NCBI RefSeq assembly: GCF_001984155.1
Contig: NZ_MTQO01000049.1
Coordinates: 186,001 to 250,000, forward strand
Reading direction: 5' to 3'
DNA from: Actinosynnema sp. ALI-1.44
GTDB lineage: Bacteria; Actinomycetota; Actinomycetes; Mycobacteriales; Pseudonocardiaceae
Length of the DNA stretch: 64,000 nt
The position numbers were made by a program, and so were the translations under genes. A model generated the notes under the pieces. The model saw only the letters and a list, made by a program, of their open reading frames with translations. It had not been told where the DNA came from and did no database searches. Positions within the stretch are counted from its first letter, which is position 1. Each line of letters opens with the position of its first letter. Shown here in pieces: positions 6,942 to 52,398 of the stretch.

Positions 6942-8288
6942 TCAGGCAGGACCGGTTGATGGCGTGAGCAGCTCGCGGGTGCGCGTTACTCCCCATTCGT
7001 CGAGGTCGGCGAGGCGATCGCTCGAACACCTCCACCCACCGCTGGAGGCCACGTGATCCGCCCAGCCGGCGCGGTCTTCCACGCGCGGAGACACCAGCAG
7101 GCAGTCGGGATCGTTGACCCACAACCGGCCGTGCATGAACTCCCGCGCGGCCCCGGCCAGCCGCGCGCCGAGCTGCGAGGGCTGACTGACGTCCCCGGAC
7201 TTCGGTTCGACGGTGACCGCGGTGTCCGGGCTGACCCGCATGGCGTCGACGAGTCCCACACTGGGCAGCATCGGTGCGCCGCAACCGAGAACGGTCGAGT
7301 CCGGCCCGACCGCCTCGCGGATGATCCGCATTCCCGCCACGTAGGCGTCGTGCCCCGACACGTCGGCGTGCCGCTGGCCGGGGTGCGCTCCGGCGTAGAT
7401 GTAGTCGATCTTGAAGAACGAAAACCCGGTCGCCACGAGGGATCTGAACAGACCGCCGAGATGCTCCGCCGCCCCAGGATGCGTCACGTCGAGCACCGCG
7501 ATGTCCCGGTCCCACTCGCGCATCGCGGGCGTGCCCCGCACCAGCCAGTCCGGATGCTCGGTCGCCACCCGGCTGTCGGCGGCGACGAAGAACGGAGTCA
7601 GCCAGATGCCCGCGCGCCGCCCCGTGTCGGCGGCGCGCTTCGCCACTCCTTCCAGGGATCCGAAGCCCGGCCGGATGTCGAGCCAGTCCCCGATCGCGCT
7701 CTGGTAGCCGTCGTCGAGCTGGATGATCTCCAGCGGTAGCTCCAGTCGTTCGGCGTGCACCAGGGTGTCGGCGATGTCCTGCTCGGTGACCTTGTTCCAG
7801 TGCCCGTACCAGCTGCTCCATCCCGGACCGAGCGGGCGGACCGCCGTCACGCCACCGTCGGCCGCCACCTCCTCGGCCCAGGCGACGAGCGCGCGCGGGA
7901 GGTCGGCGTGCTCGGTCTCCCGGACAGCGCCCTGGCTGGAGACGACGAGCCGGTCCCCGAGCGCCTGCACGCGGATGGAGGGGACTTCGGCGCAGTGGTC
8001 CACTGCGGACCAGGACCGCACCGGGCCGCCGTCGCCCGGGTCGATCACGATGAGTCCCTCGCCCTGGAAGCCGGACTCCGGCATCGGCCGGTCGAAGCGG
8101 AAGCAGCTCGCCGCGATCTGCGCCGAGGACGGCCGGGGCGAGGTCGCGTCACCCCGGTAGGTGCCGGTGGGACTCCAGGACTGCCAGCCCTGCTCGAAGA
8201 CGCGCGCCCGAGCCGGCACGCAGGCAACCTCGGCGATCGGAAGGTACACGGTGTCCCTTCGTGGTGATTCTCGTTCGTTTTTGTGCAT
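6942..8288 (-). CDS. GH36 alpha-galactosidase-like glycosidase
   Basis: A 448-residue clan-D glycoside hydrolase. The nucleophile is Asp295 in FFKIDYIYAG and the acid/base is Asp355 in MRVSPDTAV, both at the expected places. An N-terminal beta-sandwich precedes the barrel, which begins with GWSSWYGHWNKV. There is no signal peptide, so it acts on imported oligosaccharides in the cytoplasm. The family includes alpha-galactosidases and alpha-N-acetylgalactosaminidases; specificity cannot be fixed. The ATG at 8288 has GAGGGG five bases upstream; a GTG at 8249 with AAGGGA four bases upstream is an alternative start. It is the first gene of the transport operon and is divergent from the GH20 gene. 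Confidence 0.87.
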   Translation of the reverse strand: MHKNERESPRRDTVYLPIAEVACVPARARVFEQGWQSWSPTGTYRGDATSPRPSSAQIAASCFRFDRPMPESGFQGEGLIVIDPGDGGPVRSWSAVDHCAEVPSIRVQALGDRLVVSSQGAVRETEHADLPRALVAWAEEVAADGGVTAVRPLGPGWSSWYGHWNKVTEQDIADTLVHAERLELPLEIIQLDDGYQSAIGDWLDIRPGFGSLEGVAKRAADTGRRAGIWLTPFFVAADSRVATEHPDWLVRGTPAMREWDRDIAVLDVTHPGAAEHLGGLFRSLVATGFSFFKIDYIYAGAHPGQRHADVSGHDAYVAGMRIIREAVGPDSTVLGCGAPMLPSVGLVDAMRVSPDTAVTVEPKSGDVSQPSQLGARLAGAAREFMHGRLWVNDPDCLLVSPRVEDRAGWADHVASSGGWRCSSDRLADLDEWGVTRTRELLTPSTGPA

Positions 8289-8377
8289 ACTAACCCCTCA
8301 ATGAGCAATATGATGCGCACTCTAGCCAGAGAATGAACATAAAAAAACATGTCCACGCATACCGGGAGGCAGCGATC
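8289..8377. promoter_or_regulatory. Divergent GH36-operon/GH20 promoter region
   Basis: This 89-base intergenic region is noticeably richer in A+T than its surroundings, including a run of seven A residues near 8341. It must carry the promoters of both the leftward transport operon and the rightward GH20 gene. GGGAGG lies eight bases before the GH20 ATG. It is a natural target for one of the two AraC regulators in the locus (inference). Confidence 0.5.
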
Positions 8378-10060
8378 ATGAGCCACGACGACGCGCGCGA
8401 GCGGGCGGCGCACCTCGTTCCCCAACCGCACTCGATGCTGCTCGGCGCGGGGGTGCTTCAGCTTCCGGCCGAACTCACGGTGCGCCTGGACGTGCCCGCG
8501 GAGGAACGGGCGGCGGTCCTGCGGGCGATCGCGCTGCTGCCCATGACCAGCAAGGTCGTCACCGAACCCGCAGGTCTGCAGGTGCTGCTCCGCGCGGGCG
8601 CGACCCCTCCCGAGGGGTACGTGCTCGACGTGACCGAGGCCGGAGTGACCATCACCGCGGCGGACCGTTCCGGTGTCGTGTACGCCGTGCAGACCCTGCG
8701 CCAACTGCTCCCCGACGCCGCTTACCGGCAGGCCGCGCCGTCGAACATCCTGTGGGTCGCACCGGTCGTCCGCGTCGAGGACAGCCCACGATTCCGCTGG
8801 CGCGGAATGCTCCTGGACGTCGCCCGGCACTTCCTGCCCAAGCGGGAGGTGATGCGCCACATCGACCTGATGAGCGCGCACAAGCTGAACACCCTGCACC
8901 TGCACCTCAGCGACGACCAGGGCTGGCGGGTGGAGAGCCTTCGCTTCCCACGCCTGCACGAGGTCGGCAGCTGGCGGGCGACGAGCCAGGTCAGCCACTA
9001 CTCCGACGAGGTCGTCCACGACGGCACACCGCACGGCGGCTACTACACCCGCGAAGACCTTGCCGAGATCATCGCCTACGCGGCGGACCGCGCGATCACG
9101 GTCATCCCGGAGATCGGCGTGCCCGGCCACACCGGCGCCTTGCTGGCCGCCTACCCGGAGTTCGGGTCCCCGTCCGTGCCAGATCGCGCGGTGCACACGA
9201 CCTGGGGTGTGCACGACGCCCTCCTGGCTCCGTCGGAGCGGTCCCTGAAGTTCCTGCGCCTGCTGTTCGACGAGGTGCTCCCGCTGTTCCCATCCCCTTA
9301 CGTGCACGTGGGTGGCGACGAGTCCGTCCTGCGGGCGTGGGACAACGACCCGGTGGTGCGTGCGTTCGCCGACAAGCGCGGGCTTTCCGGGAGCGCCGAG
9401 ATCTTCGGCGCCCTGATGGCCGAAGTGCGGCAGATGCTGGCTGAGCACGGCAAAACACCGGTCACGTGGGACGACAGCTTTGCCGCGCAGGCAACCGCCG
9501 CCAACGCGGAATCGACCACCACGCTGGTCATGGCGTGGCGTGGCGCGGAGGTCGCCCGCCGGGCGGCGGCAGCCGGTCACGACATCGTGCTCTCGCCGGT
9601 CATGCCGACCTACTTCGACTACTTCCAAGAAGCCCACCCCGACGAGCCGCTCGCGATCGGCGGCCCGGTCACCCTCGACGACGTCGCCTCGTGGGAGCCG
9701 ATCCCGCAGGACTGGTCCGAGGCAGAACGCGCTCGTGTGCAGGGGATCCAGTGCCAGATGTGGACCGAATTCGTCGAGGACCCACGACTGGTCGACTACC
9801 TCCTGTATCCGCGGACGTGTGCCTTCGCGGAAATCGCTTGGGGCTCCCGCGCGCAGGATCTCCACCGGCGGCTGCCCCGCCACCTCGACCGACTGGCGGC
9901 GGCCGGAGTCGAGTTCCGCCCGCTGAACGGCCCGGCGCCGTGGCAGCGCGGCGGCACCGGCCGGCGAGCCCATCGCGCCGGGGTCCCGATGGCCGAACGC
10001 CTCGCGAACTACGCCAACGCGGCCGCGACCGGAACCGTGGCGGATATCCCTGATTTGTAA
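8378..10060 (+). CDS. GH20 beta-N-acetylhexosaminidase
   Basis: A 560-residue retaining hexosaminidase using substrate-assisted catalysis. The N-terminal GH20b domain covers ~15-135 and the barrel starts at FRWRGMLLDVARHF. The catalytic pair Asp314-Glu315 sits in HVGGDES, and the substrate-binding segments LHLHLSDDQGWRVE and EIGVPGHTGA are present. It removes terminal beta-linked GlcNAc or GalNAc. No signal peptide is evident, so it probably works in the cytoplasm on sugars imported by the divergent operon. The ATG at 8378 was preferred to one at 8333 because GGGAGG is positioned eight bases upstream. It converges on the DUF5107 gene. Confidence 0.92.
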   Translation: MSHDDARERAAHLVPQPHSMLLGAGVLQLPAELTVRLDVPAEERAAVLRAIALLPMTSKVVTEPAGLQVLLRAGATPPEGYVLDVTEAGVTITAADRSGVVYAVQTLRQLLPDAAYRQAAPSNILWVAPVVRVEDSPRFRWRGMLLDVARHFLPKREVMRHIDLMSAHKLNTLHLHLSDDQGWRVESLRFPRLHEVGSWRATSQVSHYSDEVVHDGTPHGGYYTREDLAEIIAYAADRAITVIPEIGVPGHTGALLAAYPEFGSPSVPDRAVHTTWGVHDALLAPSERSLKFLRLLFDEVLPLFPSPYVHVGGDESVLRAWDNDPVVRAFADKRGLSGSAEIFGALMAEVRQMLAEHGKTPVTWDDSFAAQATAANAESTTTLVMAWRGAEVARRAAAAGHDIVLSPVMPTYFDYFQEAHPDEPLAIGGPVTLDDVASWEPIPQDWSEAERARVQGIQCQMWTEFVEDPRLVDYLLYPRTCAFAEIAWGSRAQDLHRRLPRHLDRLAAAGVEFRPLNGPAPWQRGGTGRRAHRAGVPMAERLANYANAAATGTVADIPDL

Positions 10061-10095
10061 GGAATTCCGCGCGCCGTGACGGTGCACAGACGCCG

Positions 10096-13000
10096 TCACG
10101 GCGCCGGAGTCCGGATCGACCGGGCGAGGTCCAGCGCGTCGACGTGGTGCGGGTCCTCAGCCAGCAGCGCGGCCAACCGGTCACCTGCGCGTGCGTGCTG
10201 CCCGTCGAGAATGTCGAGCTGCGCCCGCAAAAAACTTACTCGGCGCAGCTGCGCAGCGGCCAGGTCCTCGGTGAACAACAACATCGACGGCAGCGAAGTC
10301 GCGAAGTAGTCCACGGTCGCCGGGCTCGTCTCCAATGTGTCGCAGAAGGCGCGCAACGCCTCGGTGAGCCGGTCGGCTTCCTCGGTGCGACCAAGCCTGC
10401 GCAGCGCGAGCACCGAAGAGTAGGTCGCCTCGGAGTAGGGCTGGGCACTCATCCCCAGGAAGTCGCCCTGCTGCGCGGCGGCCAGCTCCCACGCCGCCCG
10501 GTCGCCCAGCACGTCACCCCGCATCAGGTGCAGCTGCGCGGTGTTCGCGAGCGGATGCCTCGCCTCGCTGAGGGATTCCGGCGGCGCAAACGCATCATCC
10601 ACTGTGGATTGCAAGCGGCACAGCCGGTCCCATACGCGCAGCACGTCGCCCTCACCGCCCTCCCACGGTTGGAAGGTGCGGCCAAGCAGCAGTTCGCGGG
10701 CCTCGTCGAGCCGGTCGGCGGTGATCAGCAGGTGCGCGAGCTCAATGGTGGCGTCGTCCCGCGTCTCGACCAGGGCGCGGTTGCGCAGGAGCCAGTCCAG
10801 CCGTTGCCCGGGCGGCACGCCGCGCCTCGCACTGAGCTGGTCCCGCTCGAAGATCAACCTGGCGTCGTCCCCCGCGACGGCGAGCGCAACGTCGTAGGCC
10901 GTGCATGCCTGGTCGGCGTCACCGAGGTGGTTGAAAGCCGCGAGACCCAGATTCCGCCACACCACGGGATCATCTGGGTCGATTGCCGCTGCGGCATTCC
11001 AGGCCGTGCACGCGTCATCGGGTCGTCCGTTGGCGTAGAGCCAGTGCCCGAGCAGCGCGCGAGCCCGCGCGTCCGTGTCGTCGGAGTTTGCCGCACGCTC
11101 CAACGTCAACGCGTCGTCCAACCGCGAGGGAAAACACCACGTCGCGTCGAGATTTTGCGCCTTCCCAACGGCTTCACGCGCCTCGTGGTCCCTGCCCAGC
11201 CTGTGCAGCACCTCGGCTCGGTAGTACTCCAGCAACGGCCCGACCGCTGTCTGTCCGATCGCGCGAGACCCCTCCCGCTCGCGGGCGACGTCGAGCACCC
11301 GCAGCGCTGCTTCGTGCTCACCAACGCCGATGTACTCCAGCGCGATGTCAAGGCAGGTCTGCGCGTCCGTAGTGAGAGGCAGACCAAGCAGGTCGCGCGT
11401 CCACCAGTCCAGGGGATCAAGCGCACGGGTGGCTTCGGCAAGTTCTGCCGCTTGACTGTCTTCTCCGGTACGGCGCAACACGATCACCCGCAGAGCACGG
11501 GCTTGCAGGTGCTCCGGCTCGGTGCGCAGCACATCCTGAAGCCTGGCCAGCGCCTCCCTGTTTCGCCCGTGTGCGGCGTCGATGCGCGCCATGCGATAGC
11601 CCGCCGGTGCCCGCCACGCACGCGCCCAGGAGCCGGAACCGTAGACGTCGTAAGCCTCTTCGGCCCGACCGAGTCGCTCCAGCACGAGACCGAGGCAGTA
11701 CAACGCGGTCGTGTCGACCGGATTGGGGTTCAACGTCGTCAGCCGGGAAATGGCTACCCGCAACAACTTCTCCGCCTCAGCGAAGTCACCACGCTGATAC
11801 GCGCGCCCAGCGAGCCCGACATTGGCCGCGACATGCGCGGGATCGCGGCGCAATGCCTCACGCCAGTACAGTTCCGGCGAGCGCGTCGCGTGCCGGTACT
11901 GATCGAGATGTGCGCCGATCACGGCCAGCTCGTCCACGGTCGGCACGTCCTCGGGCGCGGCGGGCTCGCGTGCCGGGGTGACTGGATCGTCCGCGCTGGA
12001 GACCAGGGAGTCCCACTCCACCAACAGTTCGTCACCGTGGAGGACGCGCAGCACGAGTCGATCAGCGGGCTGCGTCAGCGGGATGCTCTCCTGGAAGGGC
12101 TTGCCCGGCGCGATGTCGGCGCGCACCTCAGCGACCTCGGCCCCAGCGCCGTCAACGAGCAACAAGCGGCATCCGACGCGGTCAGCCGTCACCGCGACTC
12201 CGACCCGCGCGCTCGTTGCCCGGAGGTCCACCCGTGCCGCGGCGTCCACGGTTGCCGCCTGCACCGGACCGATCTCCTGAATCGGATACCAGAACTGGGA
12301 GAACACCTTCGTCTCCCCGGGCGCGATGAAGGAGAAGTCCGGCTGGTTGTCGGTGAAAACACCGGCCATCAATTCGACATAGGCCGAACCGTCGTCGGTC
12401 AGATTGCGGCCCCACGCGTCACCGAACTCCGAAGCGCCCCAAGTCCACTGCTTTTTCCCGACAGCGATCTGCCGATCGGCGACGTGCACGAACCCGGCCC
12501 GCGCGACATGGTCATAGCCGCCGAAGAACGTTTCCTTGCTGCCCACACACATGTACGAGGTCGGCACCGGGATGTTGCGGTACCAGTCAAGGCGGTCGCC
12601 GCGGACCCGCACGCCACCGGCGACCGTGCCGACCTCGTCGTGCCGGGCCGGGTAGTCGACCCCGTAGTAGGGCCGATCCGCGGCGGGGAAGCCGGTCGTC
12701 GCGCGCTTGGCGTGATCGGCAACCACGCGCACGTCACGGGGGAAGAACGACTGGTAGTTCTCATCCGCTCGCGCGGCGATGTTGGTCCACCACAGAAACG
12801 ACCGGGTCCGTTCGCAGCGGTTGTACAGCCGCACCCGCAACTCCAGGGCGGCGCTGTCGGGCCGCATCCGAACGCCGTGCATCCCTTTCATCCGGTCGAA
12901 GGGGTCGTGGTCGGAGCACCACACGGTCACGGCGCCGTCGGGCTCGTGCTCGATCTCGACGTCGGTCGGCAGGAACGTGGCGGGGCGATGGTGCTGCGGC

Positions 13001-13496: not shown

Positions 13497-14372
13497 GTGC
13501 GGATGCTGCTGCCCGATGGATTCCCAGGTCAGCGGTTGCGCGTGCTGCCGCGGCCGCTGGTGGCTTCGGCCCTGCGCAGAGCCCCGACGTCGGGCCTGCT
13601 CGTCACCGACGCCGGGTACTTCCCCAGCGCGGCCAACCACGGCATGCACCGCCCGCGCAGCGCACCGGAAGCCATCGTGATCGTCTGCACCGACGGGGTC
13701 GGGCACTGCGAGGTCGACGACAGGGTGAGCGTGATCAGACCGGGTAACGCCCTCGTCCTGCCCCCGTCCCGCCCGCACTTCTACTGGGCGGACTCGCGCG
13801 ACCCCTGGACGATCTGGTGGCTGCACGCCGCGGGCTCCCAGGTCTCGGAGCTGCTCTCGGTCGTCACGCCGGACGGCGGAGAAGCCGTCATCGAGGTGCG
13901 TGATGCCTACCGGGCCGTCTCGGCGATCGACGACGCCATCGGCTTCCTCGAACGGGACGAGACCTTCCCGCACCTCATCTCGGCCTCCGGCGCCGGCTGG
14001 ACCCTGCTGGCACAGCTGGCCGCGGACGCGCTGACCGAAGCCCACCAGCCCACCGAGCCGGTTCGCCAGGCGCAGGAATATCTGCGGCACAACTTCGCGA
14101 AGCCGGTGATCGTCAAGGAGCTGGCGCGCACGGCGGGCCTGTCCCCCTCGCACTTCGCGGCCCTGTTCCGGATGGCTGCGGGCTGCGGCGTGGTCGAGTA
14201 CGCCAAGCGCCTGCGGATGGCGCGAGCGCGCGAACTGCTGGCCACCACGTCTCGCGACATCTCCGAGATCGCCAGAACCATCGGCTACAACGACGCGTTC
14301 TACTTTTCGCGCACTTTCCGCAGAGAACACGGTTGCAGCCCCAGCGAGTACCGACGCGGGAAAAACAACTAG
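13497..14372 (+). CDS. AraC-family regulator of the glycan locus
   Basis: A 291-residue regulator with an N-terminal cupin (NALVLPPSRPHFYWADSRDPW) and a C-terminal AraC double helix-turn-helix (VKELARTAGLSPSHFAALF and IGYNDAFYFSRTFRREHGCSPSEYR). It is divergent from the DUF5107 gene, with an 86-base gap, and is a good candidate for control of the hexosaminidase/transport genes. GTG 13497 and ATG 13503 are both possible starts and differ by two residues. Confidence 0.9.
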   Translation: MRMLLPDGFPGQRLRVLPRPLVASALRRAPTSGLLVTDAGYFPSAANHGMHRPRSAPEAIVIVCTDGVGHCEVDDRVSVIRPGNALVLPPSRPHFYWADSRDPWTIWWLHAAGSQVSELLSVVTPDGGEAVIEVRDAYRAVSAIDDAIGFLERDETFPHLISASGAGWTLLAQLAADALTEAHQPTEPVRQAQEYLRHNFAKPVIVKELARTAGLSPSHFAALFRMAAGCGVVEYAKRLRMARARELLATTSRDISEIARTIGYNDAFYFSRTFRREHGCSPSEYRRGKNN

Positions 14373-14568
14373 GCCCCGGCAGCACTCCCCACGAGACAGT
14401 GCAGGAGAAGGACATATCTGTCGTGGCACCAGGATTGCCACGGGTCGAGAAAGCCGGTGCTGCCGTATTCACGCCGTACACCAAGCACGGTCACTGCCAC
14501 GATGCCTGCTCCGATCAGGAAACCGAGGAATGACCACGTTGCGCTTGCCGAGAATGCCATCCGTGCTG

Positions 14569-14742
14569 GTCGACATCCGTCTTGTCGATGAGCTGCTCGG
14601 CGGCGTCACGGCCGCCGTGCAGCTCGAAACTCAGCAACCCGCCGGAACCGCGCATCTGGCGCCGCGCGAGCTCGTGCTGCGGGTGACCGGCCAGGCCCGG
14701 GTAGTTCACCGACTTTACAGCGGGATGGCTGTCGAGGAACTC
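14569..14742 (-). pseudogene. Cystathionine gamma-lyase/synthase C-terminal remnant
   Basis: On the minus strand one frame reads [20 protein letters not shown], then a segment ending in [20 protein letters not shown]. This is recognisably the C-terminal part of a PLP-dependent Cys/Met-metabolism enzyme. Only ~58 codons remain. The PLP-lysine region and both termini are missing, and neighbouring frames carry no continuation. This is a gene scrap. Confidence 0.6.
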
Positions 14743-14816
14743 TCGACACCCAGGCCGAAGCCCGAAGTCAGCATCGGCGCCTCGTCCTTATCGGCAGCAT
14801 CTACTCAGGAGGGTTC

Positions 14817-15305
14817 ATGCCAGCAGCCGAACACCATCACAAGACGTCGAAGGAAATGTGGACCGCCGCCCACTCCGGGCGCGCCGCACTGGCCGACGAC
14901 CTCACCGACCTCACCGACGAGCAGTGTGCTACGCAGCCGGTTCGATTTCGACAAGCACAACGCCGACCGCCTCGCTGAGCAACTAGGGGCGACCCCCGCC
15001 GACACGCTCGCCCGGTTCCGTCGCGTGATCACCAGCACCACAGCTCCTTTCGGGCCACGAGCAGCCTGGCTGGGCGAGGTGATCGTGCACAGCGAGGACA
15101 TCCGCCGCCCGCTCGGCATCCAGCACCCTATGCCCTCGACGCCGTGACGACCGTGGTCGCGACCGACGGCCCGTTCACCACGGGTGTCAAGCACGATCCT
15201 CTCGTCACGGGGTCCACTCTGGCGCTCACGATGGCGATGGCCGGTCGCCGGGCCTACCTCGACGACCTGACCGGCGACGGCGTCGAGCTTCTCCACCAGA
15301 GGTGA
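14817..15305 (+). pseudogene. Decayed mycothiol-type maleylpyruvate isomerase-like gene
   Basis: Starting at ATG 14817 (GGAGG a few bases upstream) the first frame gives MPAAEHHHKTSKEMWTAAHS and then LADDLTDLTDEQ, the N-terminal helix of MDMPI/DinB-fold, mycothiol-dependent proteins. After base ~14930 homology moves to another frame (RFDFDKHNADRLAEQLGATP, then TAPFGPRAAWLGEVIVHSED). After ~15130 it moves again (YALDAVTTVV, then TDGPFTTGV and MAMAGRRAYLDDLTGDGVEL). Internal segments have been deleted at both junctions. The order of the pieces is that of an intact homologue, so this is a single gene with at least two deletions or frameshifts. Confidence 0.75.
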
Positions 15306-35984: not shown

Positions 35985-36137
35985 CGCCCCTCCACCTCGT
36001 GCCTCGCTCTCGTGCCAGCGTCACCGCAATGATGGGTTCTAGCATGTCACGGGGCCAGGACACGAACCGGCCAAACATGTCCGGTACAGCGCATCAGCTG
36101 TCAGACGCCGACGAGTCGAGCGCGGGCGCTGGACCAA

Positions 36138-43416: not shown

Positions 43417-44565
43417 TCACCCGGGTGCGACCGCCGCCAGCACGGGAGGGGTGTCGAGGTGGCCGGTTCGGCTGAGGTGCTCGAACATGCGGTGGAACAG
43501 GGTCTCATCGGGAGGGGGTGAAGGTGGGACGCCGAGTTGGGCCAGCACGCCAGCGGTCCGATCGCAGGAGACCTGGGGGAAGAGGTGGTCGGGGTCGGTG
43601 CCGAGCAGGTACCGAACGGCTTTCCACATCGCCAGTACTGCGAAACAGTTGGTGCTTTCCGGGTGTTCGCGCAGGACCTGTTCCCATTCGGTTGTGGGGA
43701 TCTCGCTGATCATGTACCCGGCGGTGCGCATGTGGCGGAACACTTGGTGCAGCAGCAGGGGCCGCGAGTCGGCGAGGTGGAAAGTGCTGCCGACCAAGGC
43801 TGGATCCGCCGCGCCCAGCGCGGTGATCGACCGGACCACGTGGTCGACCGTGGCCGCGGGCACCCAGCCGGGGCAGCGCGGGGCCAGCCCGATCTCGGCG
43901 CAGGTGCGGATGATCCGGACCAGGATGTCGCTGTCCAGGCAGGCTCCGGTGGCGGTTTCGCCCAGTATGAGGCCCGGCCGGTGGATCACGGCGGGCAGGC
44001 CGCGGCGCATCGCGGCGCGCACCGTGTTCTCGGCGACCATCTTGCTGGTGGTGTAACCGACGCCGCCCGCGGTGACCTCGGTGGGTACCGCCGACTCGTC
44101 GACGCGCGGCTGGCCTGCCTGGCGCGACGCGCCAAGAGTGCCCAATGTGGACACGAAGTGCAGTACTGTGCCGTCACCCCGTTCGGCTAGCCGCAACATG
44201 GTCTCGGTGCCGCCCACGTTGATCGCGGACAGCCGGTCGGTCTCGGAGACCATGCTGAGCCGGGCCGCGCAGTGGTAGATCGTACGCACCGAATCGGCCA
44301 GTTCGTCGAAGTCCGCGGGTGGCATGCCGAGTCCGGGCACACCGAGGTCGCCGAAGACGGGCACCACTCTGGTCCGGTGCTCGGCGGGCACGCCGAGGGC
44401 GGACAGTCGAGCCTGCATCCGCTTGGCTGCTCCCTCGGTGCTGCGTCCGCGTACCAGGCAGAACACCGTCGCGCTCGTGGCCGCCAGCAGGGAGGCGGTC
44501 AACCGGGCACCGAGAAAACCTGTGACACCAGTGGTCAGAATCGATCTGGTCTGCCCCATTAGCAT
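43417..44565 (-). CDS. Thioester reductase-like NAD(P)-dependent protein
   Basis: A 382-residue extended-SDR protein of the thioester-reductase (Lys2/NRPS-R) family, acting as a free-standing enzyme. It has the Rossmann signature TTGVTGFLGARL, the downstream CLVRG segment, and catalytic Tyr and Lys in YTTSKMVAE. The family reduces carrier-protein thioesters to aldehydes or alcohols. It is divergent from the EF-hand/AT-ACP/synthase operon, so the likely role is reductive release of the acyl chain from the ACP (inference). ATG 44565 and ATG 44559 are both plausible starts; open frame extends to 44634. Confidence 0.88.
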   Translation of the reverse strand: MLMGQTRSILTTGVTGFLGARLTASLLAATSATVFCLVRGRSTEGAAKRMQARLSALGVPAEHRTRVVPVFGDLGVPGLGMPPADFDELADSVRTIYHCAARLSMVSETDRLSAINVGGTETMLRLAERGDGTVLHFVSTLGTLGASRQAGQPRVDESAVPTEVTAGGVGYTTSKMVAENTVRAAMRRGLPAVIHRPGLILGETATGACLDSDILVRIIRTCAEIGLAPRCPGWVPAATVDHVVRSITALGAADPALVGSTFHLADSRPLLLHQVFRHMRTAGYMISEIPTTEWEQVLREHPESTNCFAVLAMWKAVRYLLGTDPDHLFPQVSCDRTAGVLAQLGVPPSPPPDETLFHRMFEHLSRTGHLDTPPVLAAVAPG

Positions 44566-44657
44566 GACCCCATCTTGCGCCATATGGCCGCAGTTGGTTA
44601 CAACCTTTAGTGTAATAAATCGTCCTGATGTCACCAGAGCGAAGGCGGCTGACCCCC
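44566..44657. promoter_or_regulatory. Divergent promoter region of the synthase cluster
   Basis: This 92-base, relatively A+T-rich gap has to drive both the thioester reductase (left) and the EF-hand/AT-ACP/synthase operon (right). It contains CCATATGG at 44580-44587, a perfect palindrome, and GGTTACAACC at 44596-44605 with inverted GGTT/AACC arms. TAATAAAT follows near 44612 and could be a -10 element. No pathway-specific regulator is encoded nearby. Confidence 0.5.
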
Positions 44658-45218
44658 ATGCGGAGCGAACTGCTCGACCGGAAAATGGACAAGGCTTTCA
44701 AACATCTGGACATCGACGGCAACGGTCACGTGGAGCGCGAGGATCTGATCGCGTTGGCCACCAGGATCATGGCGAATTTCGGCGAAGCACCCACCTCGAC
44801 CAAGGGCGTCACGATGCTGGACGCCTTCGAGACCTTCTGGCAGGAACTGATCGCCGCCACCGACACCGACAGGGACGGTCGCATCGATCCCGAGGAGTGG
44901 CGGGCCGGGATGGTCGGGGCGTTCGTCACCGAGCGCGGGGGGTTCGAGCGGGGCCTGCGGCCGGCGGTGAACGCGGTATTGCAACTGGCCGACACCGATG
45001 GCGACGGCGTGATGGGCGTCGAAGAGTTCGTGGTGTTGCAGCGTGCGTTCGGCACCCCGGAGGCCGAGGCGCGAGACGCGTTCCGCATGCTCGATGCCGA
45101 CGGCAACGGCCACCTGGATGTGGACGAACTGGCGAACGCGGCGCGGCAGTTCTACACGTCGGCCGACGACAACGCTGTCGGGAACTGGTTCTTCGGCCCG
45201 GTCGCCGTGCCCGCATGA
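44658..45218 (+). CDS. Calerythrin-like EF-hand calcium-binding protein
   Basis: A 186-residue protein with four EF-hand loops: DIDGNGHVERED, DTDRDGRIDPEE, DTDGDGVMGVEE and DADGNGHLDVDE. All have acidic residues at coordinating positions, so four calcium sites are plausible. It resembles the actinomycete calerythrin/CabD group. The start at ATG 44658 matches the usual family N-terminus (RSELLDRKMDKAFKHLD); an upstream ATG at 44628 is in frame. Its TGA overlaps the AT-ACP ATG (ATGA), so calcium-binding protein and synthase subunit are produced together. A regulatory or structural role in the synthase is inference. Confidence 0.92.
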   Translation: MRSELLDRKMDKAFKHLDIDGNGHVEREDLIALATRIMANFGEAPTSTKGVTMLDAFETFWQELIAATDTDRDGRIDPEEWRAGMVGAFVTERGGFERGLRPAVNAVLQLADTDGDGVMGVEEFVVLQRAFGTPEAEARDAFRMLDADGNGHLDVDELANAARQFYTSADDNAVGNWFFGPVAVPA

Positions 45219-46510
45219 CGGCACGCACCGCGCTGCTGTTTCCCGGCCAGGGTGGCTACGCACCAGGGGCACTCGCCGCGCTGGCCGGGGAATCCCGACA
45301 GGTGCTGCCGGTGCTGCAAGCGGTCGACGAGGTGGCCGCAGAGTATGGCCATGACACGATTTCGTCGCTGCTGGTTGAGGAATCGGCGGATGCGGCCGAT
45401 GAACTGGCCCGCAGTGATCCCGCCCGGCTGGATCTGGCGATCTTCGCCTGTTCGGTCGCGGTGCACCACGTGCTGCTGGACAGTGGCCGAACGGTTGACG
45501 TGCTTGTCGGGCACAGCCTCGGTGAGATCGCCGCGCTGACCGCCGCCGGGGTGTTCACGGTGGCGGACGGAGCGCGCGTGGTGGCCGAGCGGGCGGCGGC
45601 GTTCACCCGCAGGAAGCCGCCCGATGGCGGCATGATCAGCCTGGGCCTCGACGAGGCGAGGACCGCGCACCTGCTGGCCGCGCTGGCCACCTGGCGGGTC
45701 GAGATCGCCGCGGTCAACGCGCCGACGCAGACCGTGGTGTCCGGGCCGACCGACGAGTTGACGGCGGTCGAGGCGGCGACGGTGGCCGTGGGTATCCCGT
45801 CCCGCTGGCTGTCCGCGCCGTATCCGTTCCACAACGCGATGCTGGAGCCGGTCGCGGCCGCTTTCGCGCAGGCTGTGGCAGGAATTCCGGTGCGTCGGCC
45901 ACGGACACGGGTGTATTCGCCCATCGCCCTGCGGCCCTACCGGGCCGACACCGATGTCCTGGCCGAACTGGTGTCGCACCTGGCCCGGCCGGTGCGCTTC
46001 GCCGAGGCGGTCCGGAGGTTGCACGCCGACGGTGTCACCGCCTTCGTGGAGTGCGGTGCGGGCCGAGTCCTCACCGGCCTCGTCACCCGTGGCCTGTCAG
46101 GGGTGGATACCGAATCCCCGCTCACCTCGAGCATGCCGCGGGCCCGATCGAGCGCGCAGCAACCCGCAGCGGTACCGGTGCAGCGTCCGGCCGCCGAGAA
46201 ACCGACGGCGCCGGAATCTCCCGACAGCCGTACGGCGACCATGCCCGCGGGCGACGCGTTGCTCGAGACGCTGCGGCAGGAATACGCCGATGCGCTCGGC
46301 TACCCGGCCGAGGTGTTCGTCGACGAGGCCGACCTGGAGGCCGACCTCGGCGTGGATTCGCTGAAACAGGTCGAGATCTTCGCCAGGCTGCGCAAGCGGT
46401 TCGACCTGCCCGCACCGCCGGACGGCAGGCAGATCAGCGCCTACCGCACGCTTCCGGCGGTGGCCAACGGACTGCGGGAACTGGCGGCCGACACCCCGGC
46501 CACACGGTGA
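45215..46510 (+). CDS. Acyltransferase-ACP protein of PUFA/enediyne-like synthase
   Basis: A 431-residue two-domain protein. The malonyl-CoA-type acyltransferase (~5-300) begins ALLFPGQGGY and has the nucleophile Ser101 in VGHSLGEIAAL and the His region YPFHNAMLEPV. After a Pro/Ala-rich linker comes an acyl carrier domain (~345-425) with phosphopantetheine Ser382 in ADLGVDSLKQVEIF, closest to PUFA-synthase/enediyne ACPs. It loads the extender unit and carries the chain for the KS-CLF-KR-DH protein. ATGA and GTGA overlaps couple it to both neighbours. There is only one ACP, whereas PUFA synthases have tandem arrays. Confidence 0.92.
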   Translation: MTARTALLFPGQGGYAPGALAALAGESRQVLPVLQAVDEVAAEYGHDTISSLLVEESADAADELARSDPARLDLAIFACSVAVHHVLLDSGRTVDVLVGHSLGEIAALTAAGVFTVADGARVVAERAAAFTRRKPPDGGMISLGLDEARTAHLLAALATWRVEIAAVNAPTQTVVSGPTDELTAVEAATVAVGIPSRWLSAPYPFHNAMLEPVAAAFAQAVAGIPVRRPRTRVYSPIALRPYRADTDVLAELVSHLARPVRFAEAVRRLHADGVTAFVECGAGRVLTGLVTRGLSGVDTESPLTSSMPRARSSAQQPAAVPVQRPAAEKPTAPESPDSRTATMPAGDALLETLRQEYADALGYPAEVFVDEADLEADLGVDSLKQVEIFARLRKRFDLPAPPDGRQISAYRTLPAVANGLRELAADTPATR

Positions 46511-49500
46511 CCGTGCCCGGGGACAACACCCAGTCGGTGGCCGTGGTCGGCATGGGGATGGTGGCGCCAGGGGCGAACTCGGTGCCGGAGTTCTGGGACC
46601 GGCTGGTCTCCGGTGAGCCCGCGTTCAGCGAGCCCGGGGAGCGGTACCGGGTTGCCGACTTCCACGCCACCGACCGCAGCGCGGTCGATCGCGGCTATGC
46701 CCGGAGCACCGGGGTGATCCACGAGCACGATGGCGTGCCCGAGACCGACTTCGAGGTGCGCTGGCTGCGACGGGCGCTGCGCGAGGCGGCCGCCACCACC
46801 ACCAGTCGAGCAGGCGACCGGTTCGGCATGTTCGTCGGTGCCTGGGCGGATGGCAGCCAGCACCTGGAGGAGTCGATCGCGGTCAGCACGGCAGCCCGGG
46901 AGATCGGAGCCCGCACCGGGATGGATCCGTTGGAAGTGTGGGAGTTGCTTCGGCCGCACTACCGGTTCGCCGACCCGGTGCTCGACCGGCACCTCGCGCA
47001 CATGGTCCCGCGGTTGGCCACCGAAGGCATCCTGCCAGCGGACACCGCGTGCCTGACCGTCGACACCGCGTGCGCCTCGTCGCTGTACGCGATCGACCTG
47101 GGTACCCACGCGCTGTTGGATGGCGAGGTGGACATCGCCTACTGCGGCGGTGTGCTCAGCCTGGGTCCCCGGATCCTGGTGCTGTTCAGCAAACTCGGTG
47201 GTCTGGCACCGCGCGGGCGGGTGCGCTGCTTCGACGCCGAGGCTGACGGCACCCTTTTCTCCGACGGCGCCGCGCTCGTCGCGTTGAAGAGGCTCGACCG
47301 CGCACTGGCCGATGGTGACAAGGTGCTGGCTGTGCTGGCTGGGTTCGGCGCCGCGGCCGACGGCAAGGGCAAGGCGATCTACGCACCGAATCCGGTCGGT
47401 CAGCGCCTGGCCATCCGAAGAGCACGTGCGGTCAACGACATCACGGCGAAGCAGGTCGACCTGGTCATCGCGCACGCCACCGGTACACCAGCCGGGGACG
47501 GCAGCGAACTGGGTGTGCTCGCGGGTGTCGCTGGTCCGCGACCCCTGCGGTGCGTGTCGAACAAGGCGGTGGTCGGCCACACCGGCTGGGCGGCGGGCGT
47601 GGTGTCGGTGATCCACGCCATCTTGTGCCTGCGCAACGACAGCGTGCCCGCACAGCCCGGGGTGACCGCGTTGCCCGCTCACTGCCGGGATCTACCGGTC
47701 ACAGTGCCCGCAGAGCACACCCCGCTTCCCGGTCCGGCCAGGACGGTCGGGGTATCCGCGTTCGGTTTCGGTGGCACCAACGGACACCTGATCATCCAGG
47801 ACGCCCCGACCGCGTCGAGCGGCCCGATCGCCGCGCCGCCCTCGGCCGACGAGGACATGGTGCTGGTGGCCTGGAGTGCCCACCTCCCAGGCCAACCCGA
47901 CCGCACGCTGGTCGCCGCGCGGCTGGCGGCCGGATCCGCACCGGCGGAACAGGCGTGTTTCGGTGCCGACTATCCATCGCCGCCGTTCCACGAGGCGCGG
48001 TTGCCCGCTCGCACGATACGGGCCGTCGATCGCTGCCAGCTGATGGCGTTGTCCGTGGCCGGCCGGTTCGCCGCAGATAGTGGTCCACTATGGACTAATC
48101 GGGTTGATCGAACCGCGGTGATCGCCGCTCACACAGGGCCCACTCTCAGCTCGATGCAGGCCACCTCGCGCTGCTACGCGCACGGCATGGCGCGGATCTT
48201 CGCGGACACCCCACACCAGGACGCCTGCGCCGACTGGCTGCGCGCGCTGCGCGACGAGGTACCACCGACCAGCGAGGACACTCAACCGGGCACGATGGCC
48301 AACATCATCGCGTCCCGCATCGCCAACCTGCTCGACCTGCACGGACCGGCCATGCTCACCGACGCCGGGCCCGCAGGTGGCTTGGCCGCGCTCCACATGG
48401 CGCGCGGCCAACTGCTCCGACGGACGGTCGACCTCGCGCTGGTACTCGGCGTCAACGGCAACCCGCATCCCCTGATACCGCGCTTCGGAGTCGTCCCGGC
48501 CGAGGGCGCCTTTCTGCTGGCGCTGGCCCGTTCGAGCACGGCCAACGAGCAAGGCTGGCCGGTGCTGGCCCGGATCGACACCAGGCTGCGTCCTCGCGAC
48601 GACGCCGCCGGCGAGGTGTGTCCTGTCGACGGGGAACCTCTCGACTACGGCGGCGCCACCGCGCTGATCCCGTTGCTGCGCGCAGTTTGTACCCACGCTG
48701 GCCCGTTGCGGATCCACGGCACCGAGCATGATCCGGAAGTCACGGTAACACCGGTCAGGCCTCGGCAGGCCGCACGGTGGCGGCACGTCCTGCGCCCGAG
48801 GTCCACGCCACTGGTCACGCTGACGGCCATCCCGCCGGGGTGTCTGGTCCTAGCGGGGTCCGCCGAGTTGGCCAACGCGTTGGCCGATCAAGTGCGTAGG
48901 CACGATGCGCGACTGCTGTGCACCGACCCGACCACTGCGGGTTCTGCGACAGTCGTACCCACTGTGGATGACAGTAGCCAGCTGCGTGGGCTGGTCGCCG
49001 ACACCGACCACATCAGAGTGTTCGCCACTACCGAAGGCTGGGACTGGCCAGCGGTGCCGACCCGACCCACCGTGGCGCTGCGCGATCTGCTCTTCCTCGC
49101 GACCAAGCACAACAACCGCAGGCTGGCCGAAGGAAGTGTCGCGATCGGACTGATCGACCGCAACACACGTCCACATCCGCACACCGCACTGTTCACCGGC
49201 TTCATCAAGAGCCTGGCCTGGGAACTGCCCACCGCACGGGTACACGCGCTGATCACCGACAGCCCCGATATCGACGCGTTGGTCACCAACACCGCAGTTG
49301 TCCCCGCCGACGGTGTTCCGGTGACCCGGATCAGCGACGGCGTCCGGCACGGCCCGGTACTGGAACCGATCGAGGCTGCGGTAGGCCCCGCTGTACTCAA
49401 TCCGGAATCCACAGTGCTGGCCATCGGCGGCGCGAGAGGAATCACCGCAGCCGCGGTCGCGGCGATCGCCCGCCGCCATCGGCCGCGGCTGTGGCTGGTC

Positions 49501-51216
49501 GGCAGTCTCGACCTGGACGTCTTTCCCGCCGACACGCTGCGGATGGACCCCGTCGTCCTGCGCGCCGGTCGCGCCGATTTCATCGCCGACCACCTGCGGA
49601 GCGGTCAAGGGTTGTCCGTCGCGCAGATCAACCACCGGTTTGAGCGACTGTTGTCAGCCAACGAAGCCTGGCACACACTGGCGCAACTGCGCGCACTGTG
49701 CGGCGACGACAGGGTCGACTACCTGTGCTGCGATATCACCGCCCCGGCCGCGACCGCCCGTATGGCAAAAGCTGTCCAGAGCGGACATGACCGGCTTGAC
49801 CTGCTGCTCAACGGCGCGGGCCTGCACCGGTCCGGTTCGGTGGCCACCAAGAGTCTCGACTGGTTCCGTCGCGTGCAGCAAGTCAAGATCAACGGATACG
49901 TCAACCTCCGTGCCGCCTTCGCATCCAGCCTGCCGCGCCGATGGTGCAATTTCGGTTCGCTGGCAGGTTTCTCTGGATTGCCTGGCGAGACCGACTATGC
50001 AGCGGCCAACGAACTGCTCGCCCAATCCGCCCGGTGGGCACCGTCAGCCGAGTTCACCATCGAGTGGCCGCAATGGGCGCAGACCGGTATCGCGACCAGG
50101 TCGTTCCTGCCCGGATCCGAGCGGGCCGCCAGTTTCTCCTCGATCAGCAACGCCGAGGGCGAGGAGCACCTGTTCGCCGAGCTGGCTGCCGACCGCGACC
50201 CGGAGAACGCCGTGATCACCGTGCTCGGTGAGCGCGACGTGAACACCATCCACCGCCAGTTCTCCACTGCGGCTGACGCCCGACCGGTGTTGCCGTACCT
50301 GCGTTCCCCCGACAGCCGCACCGACGCCATCACCGTCTGGACCCTGACCCTCGACGGTGCGGACGACCCCGCACTGCGAGATCACCTCGTCGACGGCAGA
50401 CCCACCTTGCCGGGCACCTTCGTCCTGGAGATCGCCGCTGAGGCGGCCCTGCAGGTGCTGCCAGGCCACCACATGTGTGCCCTTCGGAACGCCAAGTTCT
50501 CCGCGTTTCTGCGCACCCCGGCCGACCGCGCCAAGGACTACACCGTCCGCGCCTCACTGCTGCCCGGAACGGGCGAGCTTCGCACGGTACGAATCACCGT
50601 CACGTCCGACGTCATCCACAATGGACGGATTCTTCGCGCCGACCGTGAACACGCCAGCGTCGAAGTGGTATTGGCACCTACTGCGCAGCCGCCTGCCCTG
50701 CAACCGTTCGCGGGCACCCCGGAGCCGGTCCGACAAACCGACGATCCCTACTACTCGCCGGACTTCCCGGTGCACCTGCGTGGAATGTACCGCAACACCG
50801 TCGACTGCCGAACAGACTTCGCCCGCGCCCGCGCACGTTGGTGGGTGGCCCCCAATCTGATCCCCCCGGCCCAGCGCGGTGCGGTCCTGCCAGCACTCGT
50901 GCTGGACGCACTGATCCGTGTGCTCCGGCTGCCGGGCGACATGCCGCCCACCGCAGCGGTTCCCGACCGGATCGGTGAGATCCACGTGAACAAATCCGTA
51001 TCGGACTACGCACTGGCCGTTGAGCACCCGGACGGGATCATTCTGCGCGCGGACACCGCCACCGCTGGCGGCACGGCCACAACCACCTCAGGAGACCAGA
51101 TCGTCACCATCTCAGGTGTGCGTTTCGCCGAACTCGACCCGACCGCGAGCGTGCCCGCCCAGGTTCAGTCGCCGACGCCGGAGTCCGCCAACGCGTCCGC
51201 CGCGACGCGCAACTGA
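46507..51216 (+). CDS. Iterative KS-CLF-KR-DH polyketide/fatty-acid synthase
   Basis: A 1,569-residue protein. The active ketosynthase (~10-440) has Cys189 in VDTACASS, His323 in AHATGT and His358 in VVGHTGW. A second, degenerate KS/chain-length-factor-like domain (~440-800) has Gly621 in TDAGPAGG where Cys is expected. The ketoreductase (~965-1230) has GGARGIT at 974-980, Ser1151 and Tyr1164 in ETDYAAANELL. A hotdog dehydratase-like C-terminus (~1270-1560) has His1293 in LRDHLVDG. Domain order resembles PUFA synthase PfaC and hglE-type enzymes. The GTG start overlaps the AT-ACP stop. The last 52 bases overlap the convergent oxidoreductase gene. Confidence 0.9.
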   Translation: MTVPGDNTQSVAVVGMGMVAPGANSVPEFWDRLVSGEPAFSEPGERYRVADFHATDRSAVDRGYARSTGVIHEHDGVPETDFEVRWLRRALREAAATTTSRAGDRFGMFVGAWADGSQHLEESIAVSTAAREIGARTGMDPLEVWELLRPHYRFADPVLDRHLAHMVPRLATEGILPADTACLTVDTACASSLYAIDLGTHALLDGEVDIAYCGGVLSLGPRILVLFSKLGGLAPRGRVRCFDAEADGTLFSDGAALVALKRLDRALADGDKVLAVLAGFGAAADGKGKAIYAPNPVGQRLAIRRARAVNDITAKQVDLVIAHATGTPAGDGSELGVLAGVAGPRPLRCVSNKAVVGHTGWAAGVVSVIHAILCLRNDSVPAQPGVTALPAHCRDLPVTVPAEHTPLPGPARTVGVSAFGFGGTNGHLIIQDAPTASSGPIAAPPSADEDMVLVAWSAHLPGQPDRTLVAARLAAGSAPAEQACFGADYPSPPFHEARLPARTIRAVDRCQLMALSVAGRFAADSGPLWTNRVDRTAVIAAHTGPTLSSMQATSRCYAHGMARIFADTPHQDACADWLRALRDEVPPTSEDTQPGTMANIIASRIANLLDLHGPAMLTDAGPAGGLAALHMARGQLLRRTVDLALVLGVNGNPHPLIPRFGVVPAEGAFLLALARSSTANEQGWPVLARIDTRLRPRDDAAGEVCPVDGEPLDYGGATALIPLLRAVCTHAGPLRIHGTEHDPEVTVTPVRPRQAARWRHVLRPRSTPLVTLTAIPPGCLVLAGSAELANALADQVRRHDARLLCTDPTTAGSATVVPTVDDSSQLRGLVADTDHIRVFATTEGWDWPAVPTRPTVALRDLLFLATKHNNRRLAEGSVAIGLIDRNTRPHPHTALFTGFIKSLAWELPTARVHALITDSPDIDALVTNTAVVPADGVPVTRISDGVRHGPVLEPIEAAVGPAVLNPESTVLAIGGARGITAAAVAAIARRHRPRLWLVGSLDLDVFPADTLRMDPVVLRAGRADFIADHLRSGQGLSVAQINHRFERLLSANEAWHTLAQLRALCGDDRVDYLCCDITAPAATARMAKAVQSGHDRLDLLLNGAGLHRSGSVATKSLDWFRRVQQVKINGYVNLRAAFASSLPRRWCNFGSLAGFSGLPGETDYAAANELLAQSARWAPSAEFTIEWPQWAQTGIATRSFLPGSERAASFSSISNAEGEEHLFAELAADRDPENAVITVLGERDVNTIHRQFSTAADARPVLPYLRSPDSRTDAITVWTLTLDGADDPALRDHLVDGRPTLPGTFVLEIAAEAALQVLPGHHMCALRNAKFSAFLRTPADRAKDYTVRASLLPGTGELRTVRITVTSDVIHNGRILRADREHASVEVVLAPTAQPPALQPFAGTPEPVRQTDDPYYSPDFPVHLRGMYRNTVDCRTDFARARARWWVAPNLIPPAQRGAVLPALVLDALIRVLRLPGDMPPTAAVPDRIGEIHVNKSVSDYALAVEHPDGIILRADTATAGGTATTTSGDQIVTISGVRFAELDPTASVPAQVQSPTPESANASAATRN

Positions 51217-52250
51217 TCGCACGCAGCGGCCAATCGCTGCCCTGGCAGGATGACGGCCAGCGTGGTCACTCCCACCTCGGCCAGCGCACGCATCCGTTCC
51301 GCGATCCGTTGCCGGGGGCCCAGCAGACACACGTCGTCGAGAAGCTGCAAAGGGACTGCGGCCAACGCGCCGTCGTAGTCCTGTGCGGCCAAGCAGTGCC
51401 GAACCAGCTCAGCTTCGGACTCGTAGCCCATCCTGGCCACCATGTCCCGGTAGAAGTTGGACGTCTCGCTTCCCATCGCCCCGAGATACCGCACGATGTA
51501 CGGCCGGACCGAGTCCGCACACGTCCGCCAGTCCGGCCCGGTCACCAGCGGCGCGATCTGCACCACGTCGAAACCTGCCATGTCTAGCCCAGCGCGGCTT
51601 CGCCCTGCCGACACCCTGGCCAGGAACTTCGGCGTGTCCCGCAGGGTAAGGAGCAACCCCAGCCACCCGTCGGCGATCTCGCCGGCCAGCTCCAGGTTCT
51701 TCGGTCCCAACGCGGCCAGGTAGATCGGCACTCGCGTGCGCTCGGCTCGCACCGCCAACCCGAGCACGGCCCCATCCGGCGACGCCATCGAATAGTGCGC
51801 ACCCCGGTGCTGGGTCGGCCGCCGGGTCAGCACCTTGCGCACCAGCTCGACGTACTCCCGAGTTCGTTCCAGTGGACGGGAAAACGGCACCCCGTACCAC
51901 CCTTCCGAGACTCGCGGGCCGGATATCCCCAGTCCTAGCCGAAAACGGCCCCGCGACACAACATCCAACGACGCCGCGGTCATCGCGGTCATCGCCGGAG
52001 CCCGTGCCGGAATCTGCAGCACAGCACTGCCCAACTCCATCCGCGAGGTCCGCGCTGCCAACCAGGCCAACATCGACACCGCATCCGACCCGTAGGCTTC
52101 CGCGATCCAGACCACCGAACACCCCACGCGCTCGGCTTCAGCAGCCACCTGCCCGGCGTAATCGGGACTCCCGGAATACTCGTACCCCAGATGCAAGCTC
52201 AGTCGCACGCCTGGCTCCGTCCCACGGACATACAAGCCACTATGCGCCAT
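51165..52250 (-). CDS. LLM-class F420-type flavin-dependent oxidoreductase
   Basis: A 361-residue luciferase-like TIM-barrel protein. Typical segments are LGYEYSGSPDYAGQVAAEAE, VVWIAEAYGSDAVSML, MELGSAVLQIPARAPAMTAM and GRFRLGLGISGPRVSEGWYG. The family uses F420 or FMN for hydride transfer to small molecules. Its 3' end overlaps the synthase 3' end by 52 bases in convergent orientation, so it is physically locked to the cluster and may tailor or reduce the acyl product (inference). ATG 52250 was taken; ATG 52268 is also open. Confidence 0.87.
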   Translation of the reverse strand: MAHSGLYVRGTEPGVRLSLHLGYEYSGSPDYAGQVAAEAERVGCSVVWIAEAYGSDAVSMLAWLAARTSRMELGSAVLQIPARAPAMTAMTAASLDVVSRGRFRLGLGISGPRVSEGWYGVPFSRPLERTREYVELVRKVLTRRPTQHRGAHYSMASPDGAVLGLAVRAERTRVPIYLAALGPKNLELAGEIADGWLGLLLTLRDTPKFLARVSAGRSRAGLDMAGFDVVQIAPLVTGPDWRTCADSVRPYIVRYLGAMGSETSNFYRDMVARMGYESEAELVRHCLAAQDYDGALAAVPLQLLDDVCLLGPRQRIAERMRALAEVGVTTLAVILPGQRLAAACDQLRVAADALADSGVGD

Positions 52251-52398
52251 CGACCACAGCTCCGCCATGACGCCGACTCCGCACCCCGGAACTTCACTCC
52301 ATCAGGGAGCTGAGCTGCGTCCGAACGATGCCCAAGAAGGCCACTGATCAAGACGCGAGCCGATGGTAGCTCGGATTACTCGAGGGATTCGAGACCGC

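Follow-up and report, generated by a model that had tools for sequence, protein, structure and literature searches.

On balance, we think it probable that the genes at positions 43417–52268 of the window (the whole 64,000-nucleotide stretch of DNA that was analysed) encode a type I synthase that works iteratively, belongs to the PUFA/enediyne lineage and would make an ACP-bound polyene, and a thioester reductase (TR), which would release this chain as a polyenal or polyenol. The core pair of AT–ACP and KS–CLF–KR–DH proteins is a large and widespread family, mostly actinomycete; what is unusual is to find the pair together with a reductase for release and a calcium-binding protein. The host is a soil-type actinomycete with a genome of 11.7 Mb on 54 contigs.

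Architecture of the five-gene cluster

The five genes are arranged in the order TR (−), EF-hand (+), AT–ACP (+), KS–CLF–KR–DH (+) and LLM-class oxidoreductase (−). Each part has relatives in other genomes, which shows the five to be real genes rather than chance open reading frames. A first-pass annotation had placed the five parts in 43417–52250 (8.8 kb); all five are present, and only the right edge fell 18 bases short of the LLM ATG at 52268. Its statement that three genes have 4-base overlaps is true of three genes chained by two overlaps, read directly as ATGA between the EF-hand stop and the AT–ACP start (45215–45218) and GTGA between AT–ACP and the synthase (46507–46510). The 52-base convergent overlap that it reported was also read directly, at 51165–51216, between the synthase and LLM genes. 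The EF-hand, AT–ACP and synthase genes probably form one operon.

The TR (43417–44634, minus strand) is a stand-alone protein, identified by Pfam NAD_binding_4 (1.5e-54), NCBIfam Thioester-redct TIGR01746 (234.7 bits, above the cut-off of 213.35) and a best PDB match to MxaA (2.4e-50). Its motifs include the Gly-rich GVTGFLG, VSTLG and YTTSK, and the Tyr–Lys motif is kept. Candidate starts are a GTG at 44634 and ATGs at 44583 and 44559; if 44559 is taken, the coordinates leave a gap of 44560–44657 before the divergent EF-hand gene, possibly a shared promoter region judging by position. The EF-hand gene (44658–45218, plus strand, 186 aa) most likely starts at the ATG at 44658. Its product has four stretches matching EF-hand_1 (Pfam, 1.3e-26) and four canonical 12-residue loops, with best PDB matches to a putative calcium-binding protein (3aka, 9.3e-25) and calerythrin (1nya, 1.3e-19), and is predicted to be a calerythrin-like calcium-binding protein.

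The AT–ACP didomain protein (45215–46510, plus strand, 431 aa) has an AT (GHSLGE at 99; Pfam 8.7e-30) and one PP-binding domain (DSL at 381; 2.1e-09), in agreement with the single ACP noted earlier. The synthase (46507–51216, plus strand, 1569 aa), defined by Pfam, NCBIfam and a family alignment, consists of a KS domain (46507–47841, right edge approximate; C189, H323, K353 and H358; ketoacyl-synt 2.6e-45), a CLF-like domain (47839–48999, right edge approximate; Gly at the KS Cys position, 621), a KR domain (49414–50079; S1151, Y1164 and N1168; 2.7e-14) and a DH domain of the double-hotdog type (50323–51066, right edge approximate; H1293 and D1467; PKS_DH_N 1.9e-11). In an alignment of nine family members, window included, the KS Cys, two His and Lys, the KR Ser, Tyr and Asn and the DH His are kept in every row, as is the second DH Asp in all eight rows that reach it; Gly replaces Cys in the second KS-like domain in 9/9. 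The CLF region has no Pfam model of its own. Its identification as a CLF is supported by a profile–profile comparison, in which it matches the KS region with a probability of 96.4% (E 1.2e-9), and by the fold of an AlphaFold2 model (mean pLDDT 86.2). The best PDB matches of this predicted model are the B chains of KS/CLF entries for ishigamide, a polyene (E 5.4e-13), with moderate TM values of 0.54–0.59 and other KS structures close behind.

The convergent LLM-class oxidoreductase (51165–52268, minus strand) is Rv3520c-like, with matches to Bac_luciferase (Pfam, 8.8e-72) and F420_Rv3520c (NCBIfam, 334.3 bits against a cut-off of 335), and its sequence makes it probably F420-dependent. The part list of the first-pass annotation (KS–CLF–KR–DH, AT–ACP, TR, EF-hand and F420-type oxidoreductase) is thereby borne out by Pfam and NCBIfam, and for the CLF by the profile–profile match and model. 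Its assignment of the cluster to the PUFA/enediyne lineage is reasonable because among NCBIfam models the synthase is matched best by PfaA (5.1e-81; 272.2 bits, below the cut-off of 1010.1) and because the thioesterase of a sister cluster, L131, matches DYNE7 and CALE7. In the PDB these follow two entries named only 'Thioesterase' and an ACP-polyene thioesterase, the L131 protein being the one sister thioesterase searched.

The synthase family and its putative release genes

The window synthase is a full-length match to the KS–CLF–KR–DH profile, of which it is one of nine rows, and has the AT–ACP gene directly upstream. From a scan of genome contigs with this profile (tblastn, E 1e-3), the best 80 of 566 stretches encoding some relative were kept; more exist, and distant KS genes may be included. 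At 1e-30, 44 of 60 genomes, host included, have a synthase match, most covering the KS only; these 60 hold a second copy in the host and eight copies in five others (six full-length, one without the C-terminal part and one split over two frames). AT–ACP matches at E 1e-45 occur in 39 of 297 family genomes, again including the host. A plasmid search gave four records, one of which covers 87% of the synthase at 37% identity.

We extracted 108 distinct KS–CLF rows from 180 loci, leaving out short loci (L001–L010, L101–L130 and L151–L160), duplicates and ORFs that do not carry both KS and CLF. One tree group holds 84 of the 108: actinomycetes and five others (three Burkholderia, a Methylocapsa and an Archangium bin). 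Several loci are truncated by contig ends, so that a neighbour missing there may lie beyond the available sequence. The literature searched, in which few subscription journals are covered, yielded no description of AT–ACP plus KS–CLF–KR–DH as a family, and we know of no product for any family member compared here.

Several loci merit separate mention. The host's second family synthase (L011, G000:C40:157001–177000, at 7570–12321) is 36% identical to the first, with an AT gene upstream, a P450-like gene (by eye) downstream and no TR or EF-hand match in the locus. One contig carries two different family synthases, L012 and L013 (G005:C20), with starts about 8 kb apart. An apparent synthase remnant in a genus relative (L020, G003:C7, 7320–9600) consists only of a KS piece and a second, separate one that is CLF-like by eye. 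L015 has an AurF-like diiron oxygenase (14326–15273, 1.2e-100) on the downstream side of its synthase genes, also matched in L171. In Micromonospora wenchangensis (L056, 7401–21845) the core is split into FabL–KS–CLF and KR–DH, with P450-like genes and a transporter by eye, possibly an amycomicin-type cluster. For the amycomicin and azodyrecin clusters, candidate characterised relatives, the accessible parts of PMC9379638, PMC13273461 and PMC9967187 do not give the needed gene content.

A FabL-like SDR is fused before the KS in 61 of the 84 rows and absent from 23, the window among them; in these 23, searching the part of the ORF ahead of the KS at a threshold as loose as E 100 gives no FabL match. 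The one sister SDR domain compared with NCBIfam has FabL as its best model (2.5e-64, below cut-off). The window falls in a starred group both in a quick LG+G4 tree of the 108 rows (25 rows, 99) and in a mixture-model tree of 46 of them (21 rows, 99). In the latter it joins L134 and L030 with support 91, unstarred, a fork left open in the LG+G4 tree. Both of these nearest rows carry FabL, which makes its loss in the window lineage likely. This probable loss, and the long branch of the window (0.83–0.85), would also suit a decaying cluster without function, but we consider that very improbable, given that all five reading frames are open and the checked motifs retained.

Among the 23 FabL-less rows, six have a TR no more than 9 kb away (window, L014, L137, L140, L051 and L141), as against none of the 61 rows with FabL. 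The TR stands alone in the window and L141, and is a carrier–TR ending NRPS genes in the other four. A phylogeny-aware sign test of the TR/no-FabL link, with four independent pairs, was not significant. Searches with three seeds placed a hotdog thioesterase in 10/84 rows (6 FabL-less, 4 with FabL; in L013 the match is inside the synthase ORF) and, at E 1e-5, none in window positions 36001–60000. TR and thioesterase never occur together (0/84), and 11 of the 23 FabL-less rows have neither. Two of these 11, L045 and L139, have a separate FabL-like gene upstream of the core, making an enoyl reductase acting in trans possible in the family.

Outside the host, the best TR match among 390 family genomes (39%) is in G106, inside L141. 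Five further TR neighbourhoods were fetched and four inspected: in L142, L143 and L144 the TR adjoins a large ORF whose KS match to the nine-member profile is well below family level, and in L146 a large ORF whose start resembles a KS by eye. Whether the EF-hand and reductase genes are conserved beside the synthase had been posed as a check: TR is found in 6/84 rows and EF-hand in 3/84.

A predicted polyene pathway and its alternatives

We infer the following route. The AT would put malonyl units on the single ACP, and the KS–CLF would condense them repeatedly, the CLF helping to set chain length; an iterative KS–CLF, as first annotated, is counted as supported. Each round would bring KR reduction and then DH dehydration. 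Neither the synthase nor any of the 15 window proteins scanned with Pfam shows an enoyl reductase, as the first-pass reading implied, and the chain should therefore stay conjugated, giving an ACP-bound polyene. The stand-alone TR would use NAD(P)H to form the polyene aldehyde, and a second reduction would give the alcohol; reductive release, part of the first-pass reading, is supported as the likely exit. The TR would take the position of the enediyne-type thioesterase of some sister clusters. The LLM enzyme may catalyse a late step, with either one double bond or the aldehyde as its target.

An alternative that we regard as somewhat unlikely is a secondary-lipid synthase, in which a trans enoyl reductase (the F420 LLM or a housekeeping enzyme) partly or fully saturates the chain before TR sets it free as a fatty aldehyde or alcohol. 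An F420-type LLM gene does lie beyond the DH end of the synthase in both the window and L141, and L045 and L139, with their separate upstream FabL-like genes, would fit; PUFA-like zeamine synthases contain a TR domain, according to the accessible part of PMC13291983. The trans reductase could be the LLM or could be encoded elsewhere in the 11.7-Mb genome. Against this, the L141 LLM is of another subfamily (Rv2161c-like) and its frame is split, the window LLM is convergent to the synthase, and LLM genes are abundant in the host genome, with 80 first-look candidates. Other LLM matches listed in the genus are 38–44% identical to that of the window. We know of no LLM enzyme that acts as an ACP enoyl reductase, and membership of the window LLM gene in the pathway is uncertain. 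The LLM gene of L141 (1686–2548) lies in two frames, through sequencing error or decay.

It is distinctly improbable, in our view, that the polyene is only an intermediate, elaborated further by enzymes encoded elsewhere, with the five genes a sub-cluster of a larger pathway. Relatives L014, L137, L140 and L051 adjoin NRPS genes with a terminal TR, and Pfam finds no PPTase among the 15 scanned window proteins, the host genome having one ACPS-family match on another contig. The ten scanned flanking genes, however, belong to the MFS, SurE, PfkB, COX1, SpoIIE, LigD, PhoU, G6PD, Na/H exchanger and CitMHS families (Pfam), none typical of natural-product tailoring. Orthologues of the SpoIIE-domain gene (71–76% identity) occur in 4 of 7 other genus genomes, and those of LigD (77–86%) in 3 of 7. 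Six SpoIIE/LigD neighbourhoods were fetched, five spanning 20 kb and one spanning 13 kb, and no match at 1e-20 was found there for any of the remaining 21 of the 22 window query proteins. Flank synteny was accordingly dropped as an island definition, and the cluster boundary is not set by synteny.

In the polyene pathway that we favour, the EF-hand gene is probably transcribed together with the synthase gene, and its product may serve the synthase as a Ca2+-responsive tuner or chaperone. Such EF-hand proteins are common, with matches in 103 of 200 family genomes (host included), yet a gene for one is near the synthase in only 3 of the 84 rows: the window, L149 and L161. In L149 and L161 it precedes an SDR gene and AT–ACP, heading both operons. 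By a crude estimate, chance would place it near a synthase at 0.07–0.2% per locus. The reverse look covered the neighbourhoods of five EF-hand relatives, with ranks picked near the top (G100, G077, G023, G014 and G410). In the two closest relatives found, 46–47% identical to the window protein, the EF-hand gene is directly followed by a KS–AT–DH–KR–ACP synthase gene (G077, L163, 9167–14767) and by a terpene synthase gene (G100, L162, 8962–10463; PF19086, 1.5e-38). No biosynthetic core gene was seen adjoining the EF-hand gene in L164, L165 or L166. L164 (G023:C1, 8149–10016) has three tandem EF-hand genes, 44–47% identical to that of the window, with no family synthase in the 20 kb around them.

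AU tests reject the window, L149 and L161 as one clade (p 3.5e-5) and the window and L141 as one clade (p 0.0027), for groups chosen after the tree was seen and with long branches. With those cautions, the EF-hand links to the synthase and the TR link of L141 probably had separate origins. The EF-hand link is stronger than the window sequence alone could show, and among the papers listed in the literature searched (titles and abstract beginnings, with few subscription journals covered) none gave an EF-hand/polyketide link. A fuller version, fairly unlikely but worth stating, is a calcium-tuned polyenal/polyenol pathway. Here calerythrin-like EF-hands would be dedicated partners of core biosynthetic enzymes of these actinomycetes (in the window operon, in the operons of L149 and L161, and ahead of the PKS gene of L163 and the terpene synthase gene of L162), one of them controlling the KS–CLF–KR–DH synthase, whose chain would be finished by TR and the F420 enzyme. 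Should the EF-hand gene that recurs beside these enzymes prove functional, it would connect calcium binding with polyketide synthesis in a way that is rare in bacteria. Many actinomycetes have the core pair; the family member in the window is small and its exit step predictable, so that three or four genes might suffice to make its product in E. coli.

Comparison with known systems

Shulse and Allen distinguish PUFA and secondary-lipid synthase types, including actinomycete types M and Q, and KS classes are treated in PMC9582728; in the accessible part of the former (PMC3098273), PUFA (Pfa) and secondary-lipid synthases resemble the window in being iterative and having KS–CLF, KR, DH, AT and ACP, whereas PUFA synthases usually have tandem ACPs, a PfaD enoyl reductase and a PPTase, in another fusion order. 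The window has no tandem ACPs and, among the 15 scanned proteins, no PfaD-type enzyme, and its PfaA score is below cut-off. Enediyne PKSs, which fuse KS–AT–ACP–KR–DH–PPTase, share the KR–DH order and have a thioesterase relative in the sister cluster L131. In the window, AT–ACP is separate from KS–KR–DH, Pfam finds no PPTase domain, and no DynE7/CalE7-type thioesterase was found in 36001–60000.

The heterocyst glycolipid (Hgl) pathway includes a TR. Its synthase has KS–CLF and AT parts like the window, but per the accessible part of Shulse and Allen (PMC3098273) is without PfaC-type DH/I domains, and it is cyanobacterial with another gene set. Zeamine and fabclavine synthases, among the PUFA-like hybrids in the accessible part of PMC13291983, are PUFA-like with a TR domain, but are proteobacterial and have aminotransferase and PKS–NRPS partners. 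The iterative polyene synthase RerA/RerB of Rhodococcus erythropolis PR4 has no enoyl reductase and forms polyenes of up to C22 bound to the ACP; its authors draw comparisons to PUFA and enediyne synthases (PMC11563203). Like the window, it has KS, AT, ACP, KR and DH; unlike it, AT and two tandem ACPs are fused in RerA, RerB carries PPTase and thioesterase, and the main text lists no CLF, TR or EF-hand (PMC11563203).

The closest analogue by part list is L141, from the same family as the host's, with the gene order LLM, KR–DH, ACP, KS–CLF, acyl-CoA-oxidase-like and TR. It shares LLM, KR–DH, a single ACP, KS–CLF and TR with the window, but its core is in separate genes with no AT beside the ACP, it has the acyl-CoA-oxidase-like gene, and no EF-hand gene was found in it. 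The first-pass suggestion of a part set without parallel therefore has to be narrowed: the core pair is a large family, and L141 has almost all of these parts, distributed over a larger number of genes, while the combination with TR and EF-hand is unusual.
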